Source: Bacilli bacterium
Lineage (GTDB): Bacteria > Bacillota_I > Bacilli_A > RF39 > UBA660
DNA length: 48,272 bases
Assembly (NCBI GenBank): GCA_028693035.1
Contig: JAQUWE010000011.1
Coordinates: 1-48,272 of the forward strand
Direction: 5' to 3'
The position numbers and the translations under genes are program-made. Below the pieces are notes generated by a model. The model had not been told where the DNA came from. It searched no databases and saw only the letters and a list, made by a program, of their open reading frames with translations. Of this stretch, positions 8,009-12,834 are shown piece after piece (positions within the stretch are counted from its first letter, which is position 1; every line of letters begins with the position of its first letter).

Positions 8009-8032
8009 TTTCTGACCTCCTTTCTCTATTTT

Positions 8033-8569
8033 CTATTCTTCACTTACTTCTTTAGAAAGATTTATCCCAATAAAGAAATGAAGCCCACCAAAGGCAATTA
8101 AAAAGACACTAAGTAAAATACCTTTCATAATTTGATTGATATTAAAAAGAACCATAATACTACCTAAAAAACACAGTACCTCTACCACAAGAAAAGTGAT
8201 ATATTTTTTACCTAAATCTTTTCCGTTTGTAAAGATAGATTCCACATGTAAAATAATAAAGGCTATCATACATAAACCAATCAATCCTTTTAATAAAGAT
8301 TCTGTAAGGGTTGGAATAAAAAGAAATAGAATTCCAAAGCCTAAACTAAATACCATGAATAAAATGCTTAAATCAAATGTCTGCATCATATTTCGGTTCA
8401 TAATATATTTAATGAGAAAAAATAGTGCGACTGCTAAAAAGATAATACCAATTAAAACAGATCCTCTTTTCATTACAGTTTCATAATTAAATAGTAACAA
8501 TATCGCAAATAAAATCATCAATATAGAAAATACCTTTGACATAAATAATAATTTTTTTCTATTTAACAT
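8033..8569 (-). CDS. DUF308/HdeD-like six-helix membrane protein
   Basis: This 178-aa protein is mostly hydrophobic, with six predicted membrane helices in three hairpins and short polar ends (MLNRKKLLF at the start, SKEVSEE at the end). Length and helix spacing match the DUF308/HdeD-type family, whose biochemical role is poorly defined outside enterobacterial acid stress. It sits between cls and the YfhO-family gene. Its ribosome binding site AGGAGG begins in the stop codon of cls, so the genes are translationally close. The family call rests on general pattern, not on a unique motif. Confidence 0.6.
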   Translation of the reverse strand: MLNRKKLLFMSKVFSILMILFAILLLFNYETVMKRGSVLIGIIFLAVALFFLIKYIMNRNMMQTFDLSILFMVFSLGFGILFLFIPTLTESLLKGLIGLCMIAFIILHVESIFTNGKDLGKKYITFLVVEVLCFLGSIMVLFNINQIMKGILLSVFLIAFGGLHFFIGINLSKEVSEE

Positions 8570-8579
8570 AGATTACCTC

Positions 8580-10109
8580 CTAAAGTAGTGGAGAAAAGAA
8601 CTGGATAATATTTCGTACCCATCTCTTATGCCAAGGCATATTCTCTACCATTTCCTTTTTAATTCGAATACATTTGTGCAATGTTTTTTGATAATCTTCT
8701 TTCATATCTAAAATAGCACTATTTTTATATAACCAAACACCATCTTCAAAATGATGAATCAAACTTCTATAATCTAAATTAATGGTTCCAATTACAGCTG
8801 CTACATCATCTACTACAAAGCTTTTGGCATGATTAAAGCCTGGCTTATATTCATAGATTTTAACGCCTGCTTCCATCAAAACCTTATAGTGAGATTGTGT
8901 CACAATATGTACATACCATTTATCTGGAATATAAGGTGTTGTAATTCTTACATCTACCCCTCTTTTAGCAGCAATACACAAGGCTTGTATCATTTCATAA
9001 CTAACAATAAGATAAGGACTATTGATATATATATAATCTGTAGCACCATAAATAAGATTTAAATAGATCGTTTCACCAAGCAATTCTTTATCGATAGGGG
9101 TATCTCCAAAAGGTTGTACAAATCCGTCACTTTTAAATCTTTCTTTGTGATAGACATGTGGAAGATACTTATCTAGTTTTTCAGTAGCTTTTCCAAAGTA
9201 ATTCCACGATAATAGAAAGATATCTGTTAGGTTTTCAACCGCTTCTCCTTCTAATCGGACAGCGGTATCTTTCCAGTGTCCATATTTAGGATATTCATTA
9301 ATATATTCATCTGCAATATTAATACCGCCTGTATAGCCAATATAACCGTCTATAACCATGATTTTACGATGATCACGGTTATTGTGTCCGATTGATAAAA
9401 CCGGCTTAAATGGGTTAAATATAGCTGTTTCAATGCCTAGGTCTTTCATAAAGTGTGCATAGCCACTAGGAAGTGTACAAATGCACCCAATATCATCGAA
9501 AATAAGTTTGACTTTTACGCCTTCTCTTACCTTCTCTACAAGTATATCTAATATACCATCCCACATTTTTCCTTCTCCAATAATAAAATATTCTATAAAA
9601 ATAAAATGTTTGGCTGCTTTTAAATCTTCCAACATTTGTTTATACATTTTTTCTCCAACAGAAAAGTATTTTACAGTTGTATTTTTATGAGCAGGTGCCA
9701 ATGCTTTTGTCGCAATATAATAAGATTGTCTTCCATATATCTTACTTGCTTTATCAATATCCTTTTGATAGGTATCTAACGCTGTTTTATTTCTACGATT
9801 ATACATTTTGGTGTATTTTTCTCTATCTTTTTTATAAAAGCGATTTTGGGCAAACATAAGATAAAAAGCGCCTCCAAAAACAGGAAGTAAAAATATTAGT
9901 AAAATCCATGGCAATTTTAGAGAGGGAGATCTGTCCTCATTCATGACATAGATCAAAATTAAAAAACTAAGTAGGATAAAACCAATATAAATATATACAA
10001 AATAATCACTCAAGAACCATAGAGCATAAACAATGACTAAAATTTGTAATAAGATGAGTAGACATGTCATAATAAGTCTACTAAATAGTAAGCTGAAGAT
10101 CTTTTTCAT
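8580..10109 (-). CDS. cls: Cardiolipin synthase (phospholipase D family)
   Basis: This enzyme condenses two phosphatidylglycerols into cardiolipin and glycerol at the membrane. At 509 aa it has normal Firmicutes Cls length. The N-terminus has two to three membrane helices (about 8-55 and 66-86). Two HKD motifs are seen: H247-x-K249-x4-D254 in the block DHRKIMVIDG, and H427-x-K429-x4-D434 in NHAKSFVVDD, each followed by the Gly/Asn-rich GGINIADEY and GTINLDYRS segments. It is the first gene of the operon cls, DUF308-like, YfhO-family. The start has an AAAGGGTG site. Confidence 0.95.
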   Translation of the reverse strand: MKKIFSLLFSRLIMTCLLILLQILVIVYALWFLSDYFVYIYIGFILLSFLILIYVMNEDRSPSLKLPWILLIFLLPVFGGAFYLMFAQNRFYKKDREKYTKMYNRRNKTALDTYQKDIDKASKIYGRQSYYIATKALAPAHKNTTVKYFSVGEKMYKQMLEDLKAAKHFIFIEYFIIGEGKMWDGILDILVEKVREGVKVKLIFDDIGCICTLPSGYAHFMKDLGIETAIFNPFKPVLSIGHNNRDHRKIMVIDGYIGYTGGINIADEYINEYPKYGHWKDTAVRLEGEAVENLTDIFLLSWNYFGKATEKLDKYLPHVYHKERFKSDGFVQPFGDTPIDKELLGETIYLNLIYGATDYIYINSPYLIVSYEMIQALCIAAKRGVDVRITTPYIPDKWYVHIVTQSHYKVLMEAGVKIYEYKPGFNHAKSFVVDDVAAVIGTINLDYRSLIHHFEDGVWLYKNSAILDMKEDYQKTLHKCIRIKKEMVENMPWHKRWVRNIIQFFSPLL

Positions 10110-10228
10110 ATGGTTTCACCCTTTCTTTCTACATATAATTCACTATTCCTATTTTATCACAGAAACGATAAAGAGAAAAGAAACACAAGGCAATTCTTCT
10201 CCTTTTATTTTGTGTTCATTCTTTATAT

Positions 10229-10257
10229 TTGTATTCATACCTACTATCATGTATAAT
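10229..10257 (+). promoter_or_regulatory. Promoter of the two accessory genes
   Basis: TTGTAT (10229-10234) and TATAAT (10252-10257) are separated by 17 bases and lie 54 bases upstream of the 169-aa ORF. Confidence 0.65.
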
Positions 10258-10310
10258 TGGTAGGGAAATATAAAAAAGACCTGCTAGTATAGAGGCAAGT
10301 AGGAGGATTT

Positions 10311-10820
10311 ATGAATATTATTTCAAATGTGGTTTTTACCTTAAAAGAATCGGTAAAAAGAAAAACCCATACATGTCAGAAATGTGGTAAAGTTTTCCAC
10401 AATAAAAAAGAAAATTTCAATATATGTAACGAGTGTGAATATTTAATAACGATTGATGCTAGTAACAAATACGATTCTATTAATAAAATGAAAGAAGATA
10501 TTAACAGAGGATTCAAAAATATAGACGCATACCTGTCTAGATATAAAATAATATTAGATGAATACAAAACATTGTATGAATATGCACAATATGTACCTGA
10601 TAAAATACAATTAAAACCTGATACCTTTGAAGAATTAAAAACGTGGTTTAATAAAGATATTAGAAAACTCATGGACGAAAAGAATCTTATAATAACTAAA
10701 AAAATGGAAGTACTTGGAAAATATAAAATCGAAAAACAATATAATAAACTTGTTGAACAAGCGATTGAATTAAGTATTGAATATCCTGATTTTGAAGAAG
10801 GGTTGACTTTTTATAAATGA
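10311..10820 (+). CDS. Zinc-ribbon protein of the accessory element, 169 aa
   Basis: I do not recognise a named family. Residues 22-42 contain a zinc-ribbon-like pattern, CQKCGKVFHN then CNECEYL, with two CxxC pairs about 14 residues apart. The rest is strongly charged and helical (Lys, Glu, Tyr, Ile rich), suggesting a coiled-coil or helical bundle. No signal peptide or membrane helix is seen. It overlaps the next gene by four bases (ATGA), so the two are translationally coupled. An AGGAGG-type site precedes the ATG. Its place next to a tyrosine integrase marks it as element cargo. Nucleic-acid or protein binding is plausible from the ribbon, but no activity can be inferred. Confidence 0.65.
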   Translation: MNIISNVVFTLKESVKRKTHTCQKCGKVFHNKKENFNICNECEYLITIDASNKYDSINKMKEDINRGFKNIDAYLSRYKIILDEYKTLYEYAQYVPDKIQLKPDTFEELKTWFNKDIRKLMDEKNLIITKKMEVLGKYKIEKQYNKLVEQAIELSIEYPDFEEGLTFYK

Positions 10821-11119
10821 AAATAGGAATTAGAACTCCAAGCATATCGAAATCAATAAAGGCTAGAACGACAGGAAGAATCAAAAGAGCCTTAAAAAGA
10901 AGCATAAATCCATTGTATGGAAGAAAAGGAATGGGTTTAATCAATAACCCTAAAAAAGCAGTGTATAATAAAATATACAATAAAACTTCTGTGGGTATAA
11001 CAGAAATATTCAATATAGAAAATACGAATAAAGGTTTATATATATTTATGAGTATTATTACATTAGGCCTGTGGATTCCGATTTATTTTTTATCACAGAA
11101 TTGGAAAAAAAACCATTAA
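10817..11119 (+). CDS. Basic N-terminal motif protein with one membrane helix, 100 aa
   Basis: The first 55 residues are very basic and carry a pattern I associate with small phage or element proteins of Firmicutes: RTPSISKSIKARTTGR, then NPLYGRKGMG, NNPKKAVYNKIYNKT. A single membrane helix follows near the C-terminus (about 73-93, GLYIFMSIITLGLWIPIYFL), with a short basic tail. It is coupled by a 4-base overlap to the zinc-ribbon gene, so the two probably act together. The function is unknown. A membrane-anchored basic protein could contact nucleic acid or the membrane surface. Confidence 0.6.
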   Translation: MKIGIRTPSISKSIKARTTGRIKRALKRSINPLYGRKGMGLINNPKKAVYNKIYNKTSVGITEIFNIENTNKGLYIFMSIITLGLWIPIYFLSQNWKKNH

Positions 11120-11142
11120 TTTTCGTTTGCCGAGCAAAACGC

Positions 11143-11163
11143 CATTTCGTCGGAAGCGAAATG
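11143..11163. repeat. 7-bp inverted repeat in the integrase upstream region
   Basis: CATTTCG (11143-11149) and CGAAATG (11157-11163) form a perfect stem with a 7-nt loop, about 25 bases past the stop of the 100-aa gene. No T-run follows, so it is more likely an operator or recombination-related site than a terminator. Confidence 0.4.
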
Positions 11164-11210
11164 TGTAAAATTTGTGTTTTGAGGCATTAAAACAAAGTTT
11201 TCAAACAATT

Positions 11211-11235
11211 CTTTGCTATAGTGATTATAGCAAAG
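11211..11235 (+). promoter_or_regulatory. 10-bp perfect hairpin overlapping the ribosome binding site of the 40-aa ORF
   Basis: CTTTGCTATA (11211-11220) and TATAGCAAAG (11226-11235) are perfect inverted repeats around a 5-nt loop. The last bases of the right arm are the first bases of the Shine-Dalgarno AAAGGAGG. In RNA it could occlude ribosome loading; as DNA it would be a palindromic operator. Confidence 0.5.
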
Positions 11236-11248
11236 GAGGAAATAAAAA

Positions 11249-11371
11249 ATGGTGCAGTTAGTTATAAAATTAGGAAATAAAACAAAAATTGTCTATTTAG
11301 ACGAAAAAAAAGAGTGCAAGCCTGGCAGCAAAGACACTCTTACACATAATCATAAAAACCAGGATAGGTAA
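11249..11371 (+). CDS. 40-aa ORF upstream of the integrase
   Basis: This short ORF starts with ATG eight bases after an optimal AAAGGAGG site and encodes MVQLVIKLGNKTKIVYLDEK followed by a Lys/Asn/His-rich tail ending in KNQDR. The first half would form beta strands and the second half is polar. It lies between a 10-bp hairpin and a 14-bp inverted repeat. It does not resemble a known excisionase (there is no winged-helix or MerR-type helix-turn-helix), but its place beside an integrase fits a small regulator. A leader peptide is the alternative. Confidence 0.5.
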   Translation: MVQLVIKLGNKTKIVYLDEKKECKPGSKDTLTHNHKNQDR

Positions 11372-11411
11372 TTACTTTTTGTGTACCCTTATTATATCAC
11401 AAAAAGTAATT
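11370..11411 (+). promoter_or_regulatory. 14-bp perfect inverted repeat just upstream of the integrase gene
   Basis: AATTACTTTTTGTG (11370-11383) and CACAAAAAGTAATT (11398-11411) are perfect inverted repeats with a 14-nt AT-rich loop, starting inside the stop codon of the 40-aa ORF and ending 26 bases before the integrase ATG. The short TTGTTT after it is a poor terminator tail, but attenuation of integrase transcription is possible. An operator or recombinase arm site is equally plausible. Confidence 0.45.
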
Positions 11412-11437
11412 TGTTTGCAAGATAAGGGGGCTTTTTA

Positions 11438-12562
11438 ATGGGTTATAATGAATATATAAAAAAGAACAAGAAGATTTCAAATACAAAACATTCAAAATTA
11501 AAAAATGGATTTGGTTCTATTTCTTATTTAGGAGAAAAAAGAAGCAGACCTTTTATGCTAAGAGCTTCAGCAATGTACGATGATGTAGGAAAAGAAAAAC
11601 GGAAAATAATAGGATACACAGATGATTATTATTCTGGTATCGAAACTTTAATTCGTTACAATAAAGATACTACTTGTATTGAAAAAGAAAATATCACTTT
11701 TGCTGAAATTTTTAAACTATGGACAGAACATGAAAAAAGAAGAAATAACTCCCTGCCACCCGAAAAAAGAAAAAAGAAGGCGTTTGCTGACAACTATACT
11801 TCCACATATAACAATCAATGTCAAAATTTATATGACATACCAATCACAAAATTGTCTATTGCTGACATACAAGATTGTGTAGATTCTTGTGAATATGGTT
11901 ATTCGACAAAAAAGTATATTAAGCTTCTTTATGGAAAATTGCTAAAATACAGCAAGTTTATAGGAATACCTGTTGATCTTGATTTAGCAAAAATGATTGA
12001 CCTAGGGGTTCCTGATGTTTCTGACATTCACACTTTCTTTACACAAAAAGAAAAACAGAAGTTATGGAATAACCTAGGAAATCGAAAAATTGATCCTTAT
12101 AAAATTATAGATACCGTTTTAATGGAAATTTACATGGGACTTCGACCCACCGAATTGTTACAGTTAGAGGTTGAAAATATAAACATCTATGAAAAGGTAG
12201 CTATTGGTGGAATCAAATCAAGAGCAGGAATTGGCAGAGAAATACCTCTACACGACAGAATTATACCTCTTATTGAGTCAAGAATGCAAAATAGGTATAA
12301 ATACTTAATTACAAACAAAAATGGCTTAAAAGTCAATTATAGGCATTATTTAGATATATATAAACAATTAATGGCAAGGCTAGGCATGGAACACCTTCCA
12401 CATGACGGACGAGATACTGCAACAACCGAAATGTTCAATGCAAATGTTCCACCACTAATTTATAAATTAATTGTAGGACACACTATCCATGACGTTACAG
12501 AAAAGCATTATATTAAAATCACGTTAAAACAAAAAATAGATGCAATAAATAAAATATTATAA
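11438..12562 (+). CDS. Tyrosine recombinase / phage-type integrase
   Basis: This 374-aa site-specific recombinase has an N-terminal AP2-like arm-binding region (about 22-65), a SAM-like core-binding domain (about 85-180) and a C-terminal catalytic domain (about 195-374). The catalytic set is visible: Arg in MGLRPTELLQL (about 236), Lys in IGGIKSRAG, the HxxR box in HDGRDTAT, the GHTIHDVT box, and the nucleophile Tyr in EKHYIKIT. Length and layout match integrases of prophages and small integrative elements. It reads towards a tRNA cluster and ends at a terminator, with a tandem repeat between it and tRNA-Lys. The ATG follows AAGGGGG. Confidence 0.93.
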   Translation: MGYNEYIKKNKKISNTKHSKLKNGFGSISYLGEKRSRPFMLRASAMYDDVGKEKRKIIGYTDDYYSGIETLIRYNKDTTCIEKENITFAEIFKLWTEHEKRRNNSLPPEKRKKKAFADNYTSTYNNQCQNLYDIPITKLSIADIQDCVDSCEYGYSTKKYIKLLYGKLLKYSKFIGIPVDLDLAKMIDLGVPDVSDIHTFFTQKEKQKLWNNLGNRKIDPYKIIDTVLMEIYMGLRPTELLQLEVENINIYEKVAIGGIKSRAGIGREIPLHDRIIPLIESRMQNRYKYLITNKNGLKVNYRHYLDIYKQLMARLGMEHLPHDGRDTATTEMFNANVPPLIYKLIVGHTIHDVTEKHYIKITLKQKIDAINKIL

Positions 12563-12592
12563 AATTCACTATAAGTACAAGTGAATTTTTTT
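12561..12592 (+). terminator. Integrase terminator
   Basis: A 10-bp stem AAAATTCACT/AGTGAATTTT (12561-12570, 12580-12589) is followed by T. It begins right at the integrase stop codon. Confidence 0.85.
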
Positions 12593-12620
12593 ATGTTTTA
12601 TCCTTTGGCGAAAATATAAA

Positions 12621-12642
12621 GTGTTGCCAACGTGTTGCCAAC
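12621..12642. repeat. Tandem 11-bp direct repeat, possible integrase arm sites
   Basis: GTGTTGCCAAC occurs twice head to tail with no spacer. Such short tandem repeats just downstream of an integrase gene are typical of arm-type binding sites at an element end. Confidence 0.55.
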
Positions 12643-12714
12643 GCAAATAAAATAGCATGTTTTCTATACTATATTAATATATTTGTCTTTTTTTATAAAT
12701 ATATCAAGGCATAA

Positions 12715-12741
12715 AAAAAACCTTATAAATAAAGGTTTTTT
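12715..12741. terminator. Bidirectional terminator at the end of the second tRNA cluster
   Basis: AAAAAACCTT/AAGGTTTTTT (12715-12724, 12732-12741) with a 7-nt loop lies 12 bases past the 3' end of tRNA-Lys on the minus strand. It could also stop plus-strand read-through from the integrase. Confidence 0.75.
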
Positions 12742-12752
12742 AATTTTTAAAA

Positions 12753-12828
12753 TGGTGTCCCGCCCGAGATTCGAACTCGGGACCCTTTGATTAAAAGTCA
12801 AATGCTCTACCAGCTGAGCTAACGGGAC
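12753..12828 (-). tRNA. tRNA-Lys(UUU)
   Basis: A 76-nt cloverleaf on the minus strand with encoded CCA. The acceptor is GTCCCGT/GCGGGAC and the anticodon loop CTTTTAA gives UUU. It is the last gene of its cluster and the nearest tRNA to the integrase, hence the most likely attachment target, although I found no second copy of its 3' end. Confidence 0.95.
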
Positions 12829-12834
12829 ATTATA

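Follow-up and report, generated by a model that had tools for sequence, protein, structure and literature searches.

Three perfect inverted repeats stand upstream of an integrase gene in the 48,272-nt stretch of DNA analyzed in this study (hereafter the window, to which all positions refer), and the question raised by this locus is what such a set of structures does for the integrase. A preliminary description had read them as layered control, in which a hairpin gates the translation of a small ORF, possibly a leader peptide, and a longer stem gates the integrase itself. All three stems proved to be present and perfect on the plus strand: a 7-bp stem with a loop of 7 nt (11143-11163), a 10-bp palindrome with a loop of 5 nt (11211-11235) and a 14-bp stem with a loop of 14 nt (11370-11411), which ends 26 nt 5' of the integrase ATG (11438). 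Our analyses suggested, at a probability of roughly two in three, that in this region a cis-encoded antisense RNA attenuates translation and thereby silences a prophage integrase.

The controlled gene (11438-12562, plus strand) encodes a tyrosine recombinase of 374 aa (PF00589, E=2e-14; phrog_1, E=6.6e-28). Its frame is open, and R236, K260, R325, H348 and Y358, which we take to be the catalytic residues, were invariant in five aligned proteins. The Shine-Dalgarno (SD) segment of the gene, GATAAGGGGG, lies at 11421-11430 (plus strand). Upstream of the integrase are two plus-strand ORFs, one of 169 aa without a confident family (10311-10820) and one at 10817-11119; because they overlap, they probably form one operon. 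The N-terminal 72 residues of the latter product match phrog_10934 (E=1.6e-32), and a tblastn search with it returned 87 phage records, mostly from Streptococcus and Paenibacillus, with at least 80% protein coverage in 12 of them. Among five phage records viewed, the relative of this ORF adjoined the integrase in three, all Streptococcus phages, and did not in the other two.

A tRNA-Lys cluster lies downstream of the integrase. The interval from the YfhO gene to this cluster (8009-12752) is a variable site in the genus: the window carries DUF308, PLD and the integrase stretch here, the same-genus locus L037 carries PLD, GNAT and an unnamed ORF, L040 carries a different, interrupted integrase, and in L038 YfhO stands directly at the tRNA-Lys site with nothing between. 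Given such varied cargo, the integrase lies in a short segment of prophage-like character at a site whose content varies within the genus. A comparison of 12601-12830 with 9901-10330 for att repeats gave nothing beyond an 11-nt AT run. An inverted repeat over the integrase stop (12549-12601; ATAAAATATTATAAAATTCACT / AGTGAATTTTTTTATGTTTTAT, 86% complementary) resembles an integrase terminator, and elsewhere in the window the minus strand at 43256-43363 matches the Rfam S10-Clostridia ribosomal protein leader (RF03136) at 35.6 bits against a cut-off of 35.1 bits. With the window protein as the only query, no integrase relatives were found in the genome contigs and viral contigs, and relatives were then sought by whole-genome searches and with phage integrases as queries.

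To estimate the chance occurrence of such stems, the whole window was shuffled 10 times for each class with its dinucleotides preserved. Stems of at least 7 bp with loops of up to 8 nt numbered 53 in the window against a shuffle mean of 34.1, so that in this AT-rich sequence the 7-bp stem alone, of a size common within the window, is unremarkable. Stems of at least 10 bp with the same loop limit numbered 6 against 1.0, and those of at least 14 bp with loops of up to 16 nt numbered 1 against 0.0; stems of these two sizes are thus not common here, and the 14-bp stem is the sole member of its class. In addition, the leader as a whole (11120-11440) folds better than its shuffles (z -2.72). No second copy of the 7-bp stem sequence occurs in the window with up to two mismatches allowed. 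The preliminary description had regarded relatives that keep the integrase and lose the stems as speaking against its proposal, and this is how the 10-bp stem and, in the upstream regions of relatives that were read, the 7-bp stem behaved. The outcome for the 14-bp stem was divided: its sequence is not common to the relatives, while a stem that competes with anti-SD pairing is.

What does recur is an element absent from the preliminary description, a predicted promoter with its terminator, both on the minus strand and placed around the 14-bp stem. A predicted -35 box TTGCAA (11415-11420, minus strand) and an extended -10 box TGATATAAT (11391-11399, minus strand), the latter with equivalents in L040, L051-L053, L095, L097 and the order relatives, enclose a spacer within which lies the right arm of the 14-bp stem (11398-11411). 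Transcription would start at about 11384 on the minus strand, 7 nt downstream of the extended -10 box, and would end at an intrinsic terminator composed of a hairpin (11310-11341, minus strand), probably also the target hairpin in the sense mRNA, and a T8 tract (11304-11311, minus strand; A8 on the plus strand). The predicted product is an antisense RNA of about 81 nt with two hairpins (11304-11384, minus strand). Its fold reached -22.2 kcal/mol (z -3.63), and none of 200 shuffles was equally stable; four such predicted RNAs were folded including that of the window, and all folded well (L040, z -3.43; L053, -5.26; L051, -4.85). At the sequence level, then, a promoter and a terminator of its own, 81 nt apart, oppose the integrase leader, and a predicted antisense RNA to this leader is the best-supported explanation of the region. 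The working part of the region is very probably this antisense RNA, acting most likely through an SD switch. No Rfam family reached its gathering cut-off in the region, the sub-threshold matches were only to unrelated families, and the Rfam antisense families gave no match.

The element was traced through the same-genus locus L040. The window integrase had no match in the L040 genome at E<=0.001, and the integrase frame of L040 is interrupted in its contig, with PF00589 in the second piece. Both leaders carry the motif ACACATAAT...CTTTTTGTGTACCC, and the SD of L040 complements the segment directly after it. A BLAST search of the L040 leader against phages returned 12 records (E 0.7-8), two of which (E ~8) lie directly 5' of Latilactobacillus phage integrases; the features common to these leaders and that of L040, read on the minus strand, amounted to an extended -10 promoter followed by an intrinsic terminator. 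The leader motif had no matches in the viral contigs and seven in the genome contigs, one of them the L040 contig itself. By eye, three matches in Paenibacillus resembled ordinary terminators and three in Bacteroidota-named records looked like chance, and these six were set aside. The leader DNA of the window gave one match among phages (E=0.2) and none among plasmids.

The recurrence of the unit was assessed with a scanner that required an extended -10 box with a partial -35 box and then a terminator 50-150 nt on, within 330 nt around integrase starts. The order set comprised 19 loci picked by similarity to the window integrase alone, one of which was dropped as it lacked a start codon; a repeat of the search with the L007 integrase returned the identical 19 genomes. 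The unit was found on the minus strand in 11 of the 18 loci, compared with 1/18 on the plus strand, 0/36 inside the integrase and 0/18 further upstream. A mixed set of the window, L040 and phage and viral-contig loci (144 loci, 92 of them non-redundant) gave 33/92 on the minus strand, against 1/92 on the plus strand, 0/184 inside the integrase, 4/90 further upstream and 6/460 in shuffles. Because its queries were mostly integrases whose loci were known to be positive, this set carries a bias; when the seven loci known before the scan were removed, 26 of 85 were positive, and when loci were clustered by a looser similarity rule, 14 of the 53 clusters were, every cluster being all-positive or all-negative. 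In a third set of 11 phages among the matches listed (20 of the 30 phage records matching the window integrase), the minus strand gave 4/11, the plus strand 1/11, the interior of the integrase 0/22 and the region further upstream 0/11, and in some negatives, such as L217, the scanner rule recognized a terminator on the minus strand without a promoter. The strict scan found no unit before 59 of the 92 integrases in the mixed set and 7 of the 18 in the order set. Many positives are related, so that the 43 loci carried into the tests below (33 from the mixed set and 10 of the 11 from the order set, L011 being left out for its doubtful start) form 21 clusters. The unit is thus frequent without being universal. 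It was found in the same-genus L040, in Latilactobacillus and Streptococcus phages, among them the S. pyogenes phages Str01 and 315.6, and in the order relatives, and it precedes both tyrosine and serine integrases (the latter in Str01, L095 and relatives).

This distribution bears on whether the repeats act as DNA. Perfect palindromes beside an integrase are typical of attachment, arm-binding or operator sites, and the repeats of the window could be attachment sites, Int/Xis arm-binding sites or repressor operators, with the 10-bp palindrome as an operator over a sense promoter. Against this, the recurring feature is strand-specific (1/92 on the plus strand, 33/92 on the minus strand) and precedes two unrelated enzyme classes. 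In addition, a search of the genome (93% complete) that tolerated up to three mismatches found the palindrome nowhere else, which speaks against a repeated operator. A DNA-level site is thus quite improbable. The palindrome does include TATAGT and could overlap a sense promoter; no sense promoter of the integrase was identified.

The same 43 loci speak to the leader peptide. The right arm of the 10-bp palindrome had been said to enter the SD of a small ORF, and this overlap was indeed seen: the palindrome spans the SD AAAGGAGG (11232-11239) of a 40-aa ORF at 11249-11371 (plus strand). A good SD overlapped by a perfect 10-bp stem, and an ORF that spans the target hairpin up to the start of the 14-bp stem, would suit a model in which translation of the ORF, gated by the 10-bp hairpin, controls the integrase via the 14-bp stem. 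The same-genus L040 has no such ORF, however, and an ATG ORF of at least 20 aa with a good SD exists in the window and in none of the other 42 unit loci; short frames across the unit in those loci amount to a 29-aa TTG frame in L063 and frames of 8-11 codons in L121, L131 and L133, with no others. Moreover, the best match of the 40-aa peptide in the phage collection had an E of about 2. A leader peptide is thus extremely unlikely here, and the ORF, which is not common to the relatives, may be incidental. From the proposal of layered control, post-transcriptional control of the integrase with the 14-bp stem as a part of it is retained as very probable, and the layered leader-peptide system is not supported.

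We return to the antisense-RNA attenuator, which would work as follows. In free integrase mRNA, the 14-bp stem (11370-11411) would hold the anti-SD (11386-11393, plus strand; hereafter the mid arm) off the ribosome-binding site. The promoter inside this stem would give rise to the minus-strand RNA of about 81 nt, which would end at its intrinsic terminator about 130 nt upstream of the integrase and would pair with the leader over a stretch that begins at the target hairpin and includes the left arm of the stem (11370-11383, plus strand), so that the 14-bp stem would be blocked. The anti-SD, just beyond the antisense RNA, would then close on the SD at 11421-11428, and the integrase would therefore go untranslated. 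The left arm, a competing arm that resembles a pre-emptor, lies exactly under the predicted antisense RNA (start at ~11384), and the mid arm is left free; in the fold with the antisense target masked, the mid arm pairs with 11421-11428. This reading draws on sequence features, recurrence, non-random complementarity and folding, from which we infer transcription in this organism, RNA pairing, repression and the biological role. Since the stretch is remnant-like and the L040 integrase is interrupted, the switch may be a relic in this organism.

The complementarity was tested by taking the segment under the antisense -10 region as the mid arm and comparing its own partners with those of other loci in 10000 permutations. 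Twenty-six of the 43 loci were usable, and 17 were dropped because the SD was too near the antisense promoter or the left segment was too short. Pairing between the competing upstream arm and the mid arm averaged -8.35 kcal/mol against -5.48 +/- 0.41 kcal/mol with swapped partners, a value reached in none of the 10000 permutations, and pairing between the mid arm and the SD averaged -6.90 against -5.81 +/- 0.33 kcal/mol (8 of 10000), a weaker signal than that of the competing arm. When a single locus was drawn from each cluster (18 clusters, 20 draws), the median p was <0.001 for the upstream arm and 0.001 for the SD, and the largest p was <0.001 and 0.005, respectively. Clear three-arm examples are L010 (TTGGAGC / GCTCCAATT / AATTGGAGG) and L040 (GATTAGGG / CCCTAAT / GATTAGAGGG). 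Unlike in these two, the competing stem in the window flanks the mid arm and has no pairing with it.

Folding gave a graded picture. In the window, the modelled SD accessibility was 0.37 in the free leader, 0.09 with the antisense stretch masked and 0.50 with a shuffled mid arm. The corresponding means over 43 loci were 0.365, 0.274 and 0.430 (Wilcoxon p=0.0016 for masked against free and 7e-8 against the control), and over 21 clusters they were 0.396, 0.263 and 0.437 (p=0.010 and 0.0007); a weaker trend was observed for 12 order loci (p=0.046 against free, 0.076 against the control). Masking lowered the accessibility by at least 0.05 in 15 of the 43 loci, left it within 0.05 in 24 and raised it in 4; many of the loci without a change have an SD that is mostly paired already in the free fold, which short-leader folding cannot resolve. 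Mutually exclusive leader structures with sequestration of the SD are thus predicted for the window, and in the wider set for those 15 loci only. In an alignment of the closest leader set, the hairpin appeared, by eye, out of register in two of seven rows (L063 and L064).

These results also bear on a simpler action of the same RNA, in which a plain duplex would act through RNase III decay, transcriptional interference or direct blocking of ribosomes, with no two-state SD switch. The promoter-terminator unit (11/18 and 33/92) is indeed better supported than the switch (folding, 15/43). Yet both arm complementarities exceed what partner permutation gives (0 and 8 of 10000) and hold per cluster, and the predicted antisense RNA of the window ends short of the mid arm and the SD, which speaks for an induced structure rather than direct blocking of the SD. 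We consider a plain duplex rather unlikely, and continue with the attenuator as the preferred reading.

Several known systems resemble the predicted unit in part. First, differential RNA-seq of Streptococcus pyogenes S119 recorded antisense sRNAs upstream of four prophage integrases (SP119_SR034, SR071, SR086 and SR106; PMC6431027), and that article proposes that they help silence the integrase in lysogeny. Like the window unit, which is known by prediction, they are antisense and lie in the gap upstream of a prophage integrase; they come from one Streptococcus strain, whereas the window belongs to another lineage, and the available text of PMC6431027 gives no mechanism. From their position, with phages Str01 and 315.6 as stand-ins, we infer that they are the same kind of unit. 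An S169 RNA antisense to int of ICEBs1 is mentioned in passing in PMC12288471; this too would be an antisense transcript at an integrase gene, in a mobile element with a Bacillota host. Furthermore, the Lacto-int motif, a candidate structured RNA of Lactobacillales and their phages (Weinberg et al., 2010; PMC2864571), has a name that points to an integrase; judged by its row in a table, which carries question marks and shows no Rfam number, it may be the same element on one strand. No Rfam match named Lacto-int was found in L051-L053.

Second, plasmid copy control offers the closest likeness in mechanism. According to PMC5703833, RNAI of pSK41 is a counter-transcribed RNA of about 83 nt with two stem-loops, and an induced stem-loop is proposed to hide the rep ribosome-binding site. 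RNA length, two stem-loops and a sequestered SD are similar in the window unit as predicted; pSK41 controls a plasmid replication initiator whereas the window unit would control an integrase, and the likeness in predicted parts does not imply kinship. In pT181, an 87-nt RNAI acts with a pre-emptor in the transcription attenuation of repC (PMC5703833), and as in our model for the window, the antisense RNA frees the pre-emptor-paired arm, which closes just upstream of the start codon. The pT181 system as described there mainly terminates transcription, whereas the SD hairpin of the window is followed only by a short T-run, GCTTTTTAATG, at which transcription termination is possible. Rfam RF00242 (ctRNA_pT181) had no match in 10800-12760 up to E=5, and L053 scored 33.2 bits against it (E=0.37), below the cut-off of 56 bits. 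Because the controlled gene is a tyrosine integrase, the window unit would work like the pSK41 and pT181 systems but is not one of them. Among the literature matches listed, covered by titles and abstract openings in a scope that mostly lies outside subscription journals, no paper was found to state how such an antisense RNA of an integrase would act.

The placement of the unit suggests why such a lock would be of use. In related phages it follows the final gene of the repressor operon and precedes the integrase, and in six annotated phages viewed the same-direction upstream genes include a repressor. In 29 of the 43 loci, the window not among them, an upstream ORF of at least 50 codons stops 4-14 nt before the terminator hairpin, a count that is partly built in because the A-run favours TAA. 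The natural reading is that the integrase is read from the repressor mRNA and that the antisense RNA silences the integrase alone; with the unit so placed, a lysogen would keep its repressor mRNA yet silence the integrase.

Comparisons between loci indicated that leaders can be swapped without their neighbours. Between L051 and L052, DNA identity was 84% in the leader, 45% in the integrase and 36% in the upstream region, and between L066 and L067 it was 91, 62 and 31%, respectively; L099 and L106 share 96% of the integrase and 67% of the leader. The hairpin loop contained TTGG or CCAA in 24 of the 43 loci, against 6.7 expected from shuffled loops, in which it resembles loops found in known antisense RNAs. 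It differs between L053 and L058, which are closely related, and this variation suggests specificity types. The strand of the UUUGG-type loop differs among serine-integrase phages: L098 and L106 carry it in the sense orientation and L095 in the antisense one, as would follow from an inversion of the loop.

A broader proposal, which we put forward tentatively and hold to be possible rather than probable, is that many temperate phages and prophage remnants, in Bacillota and Fusobacteriota alike, have in common an exchangeable antisense SD lock between repressor operon and integrase, whatever the integrase class, with kissing-loop types; in lysogens this lock would uncouple the integrase from the repressor mRNA. 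A resident antisense RNA could then silence an incoming integrase of the same type and block integration, which would amount to a prophage RNA incompatibility group.

In a lysogen the integrase must be silent while the repressor operon, which in the annotated phages viewed points straight into the integrase gene, remains active. This problem would have a simple solution in an antisense attenuator placed exactly between the two, whatever the class of integrase. It would extend a principle of plasmid copy control to the control of integration, and would suggest a function for the antisense sRNAs of S. pyogenes prophages. If the loop types act in trans, they would predict which prophages allow superinfection and integration.
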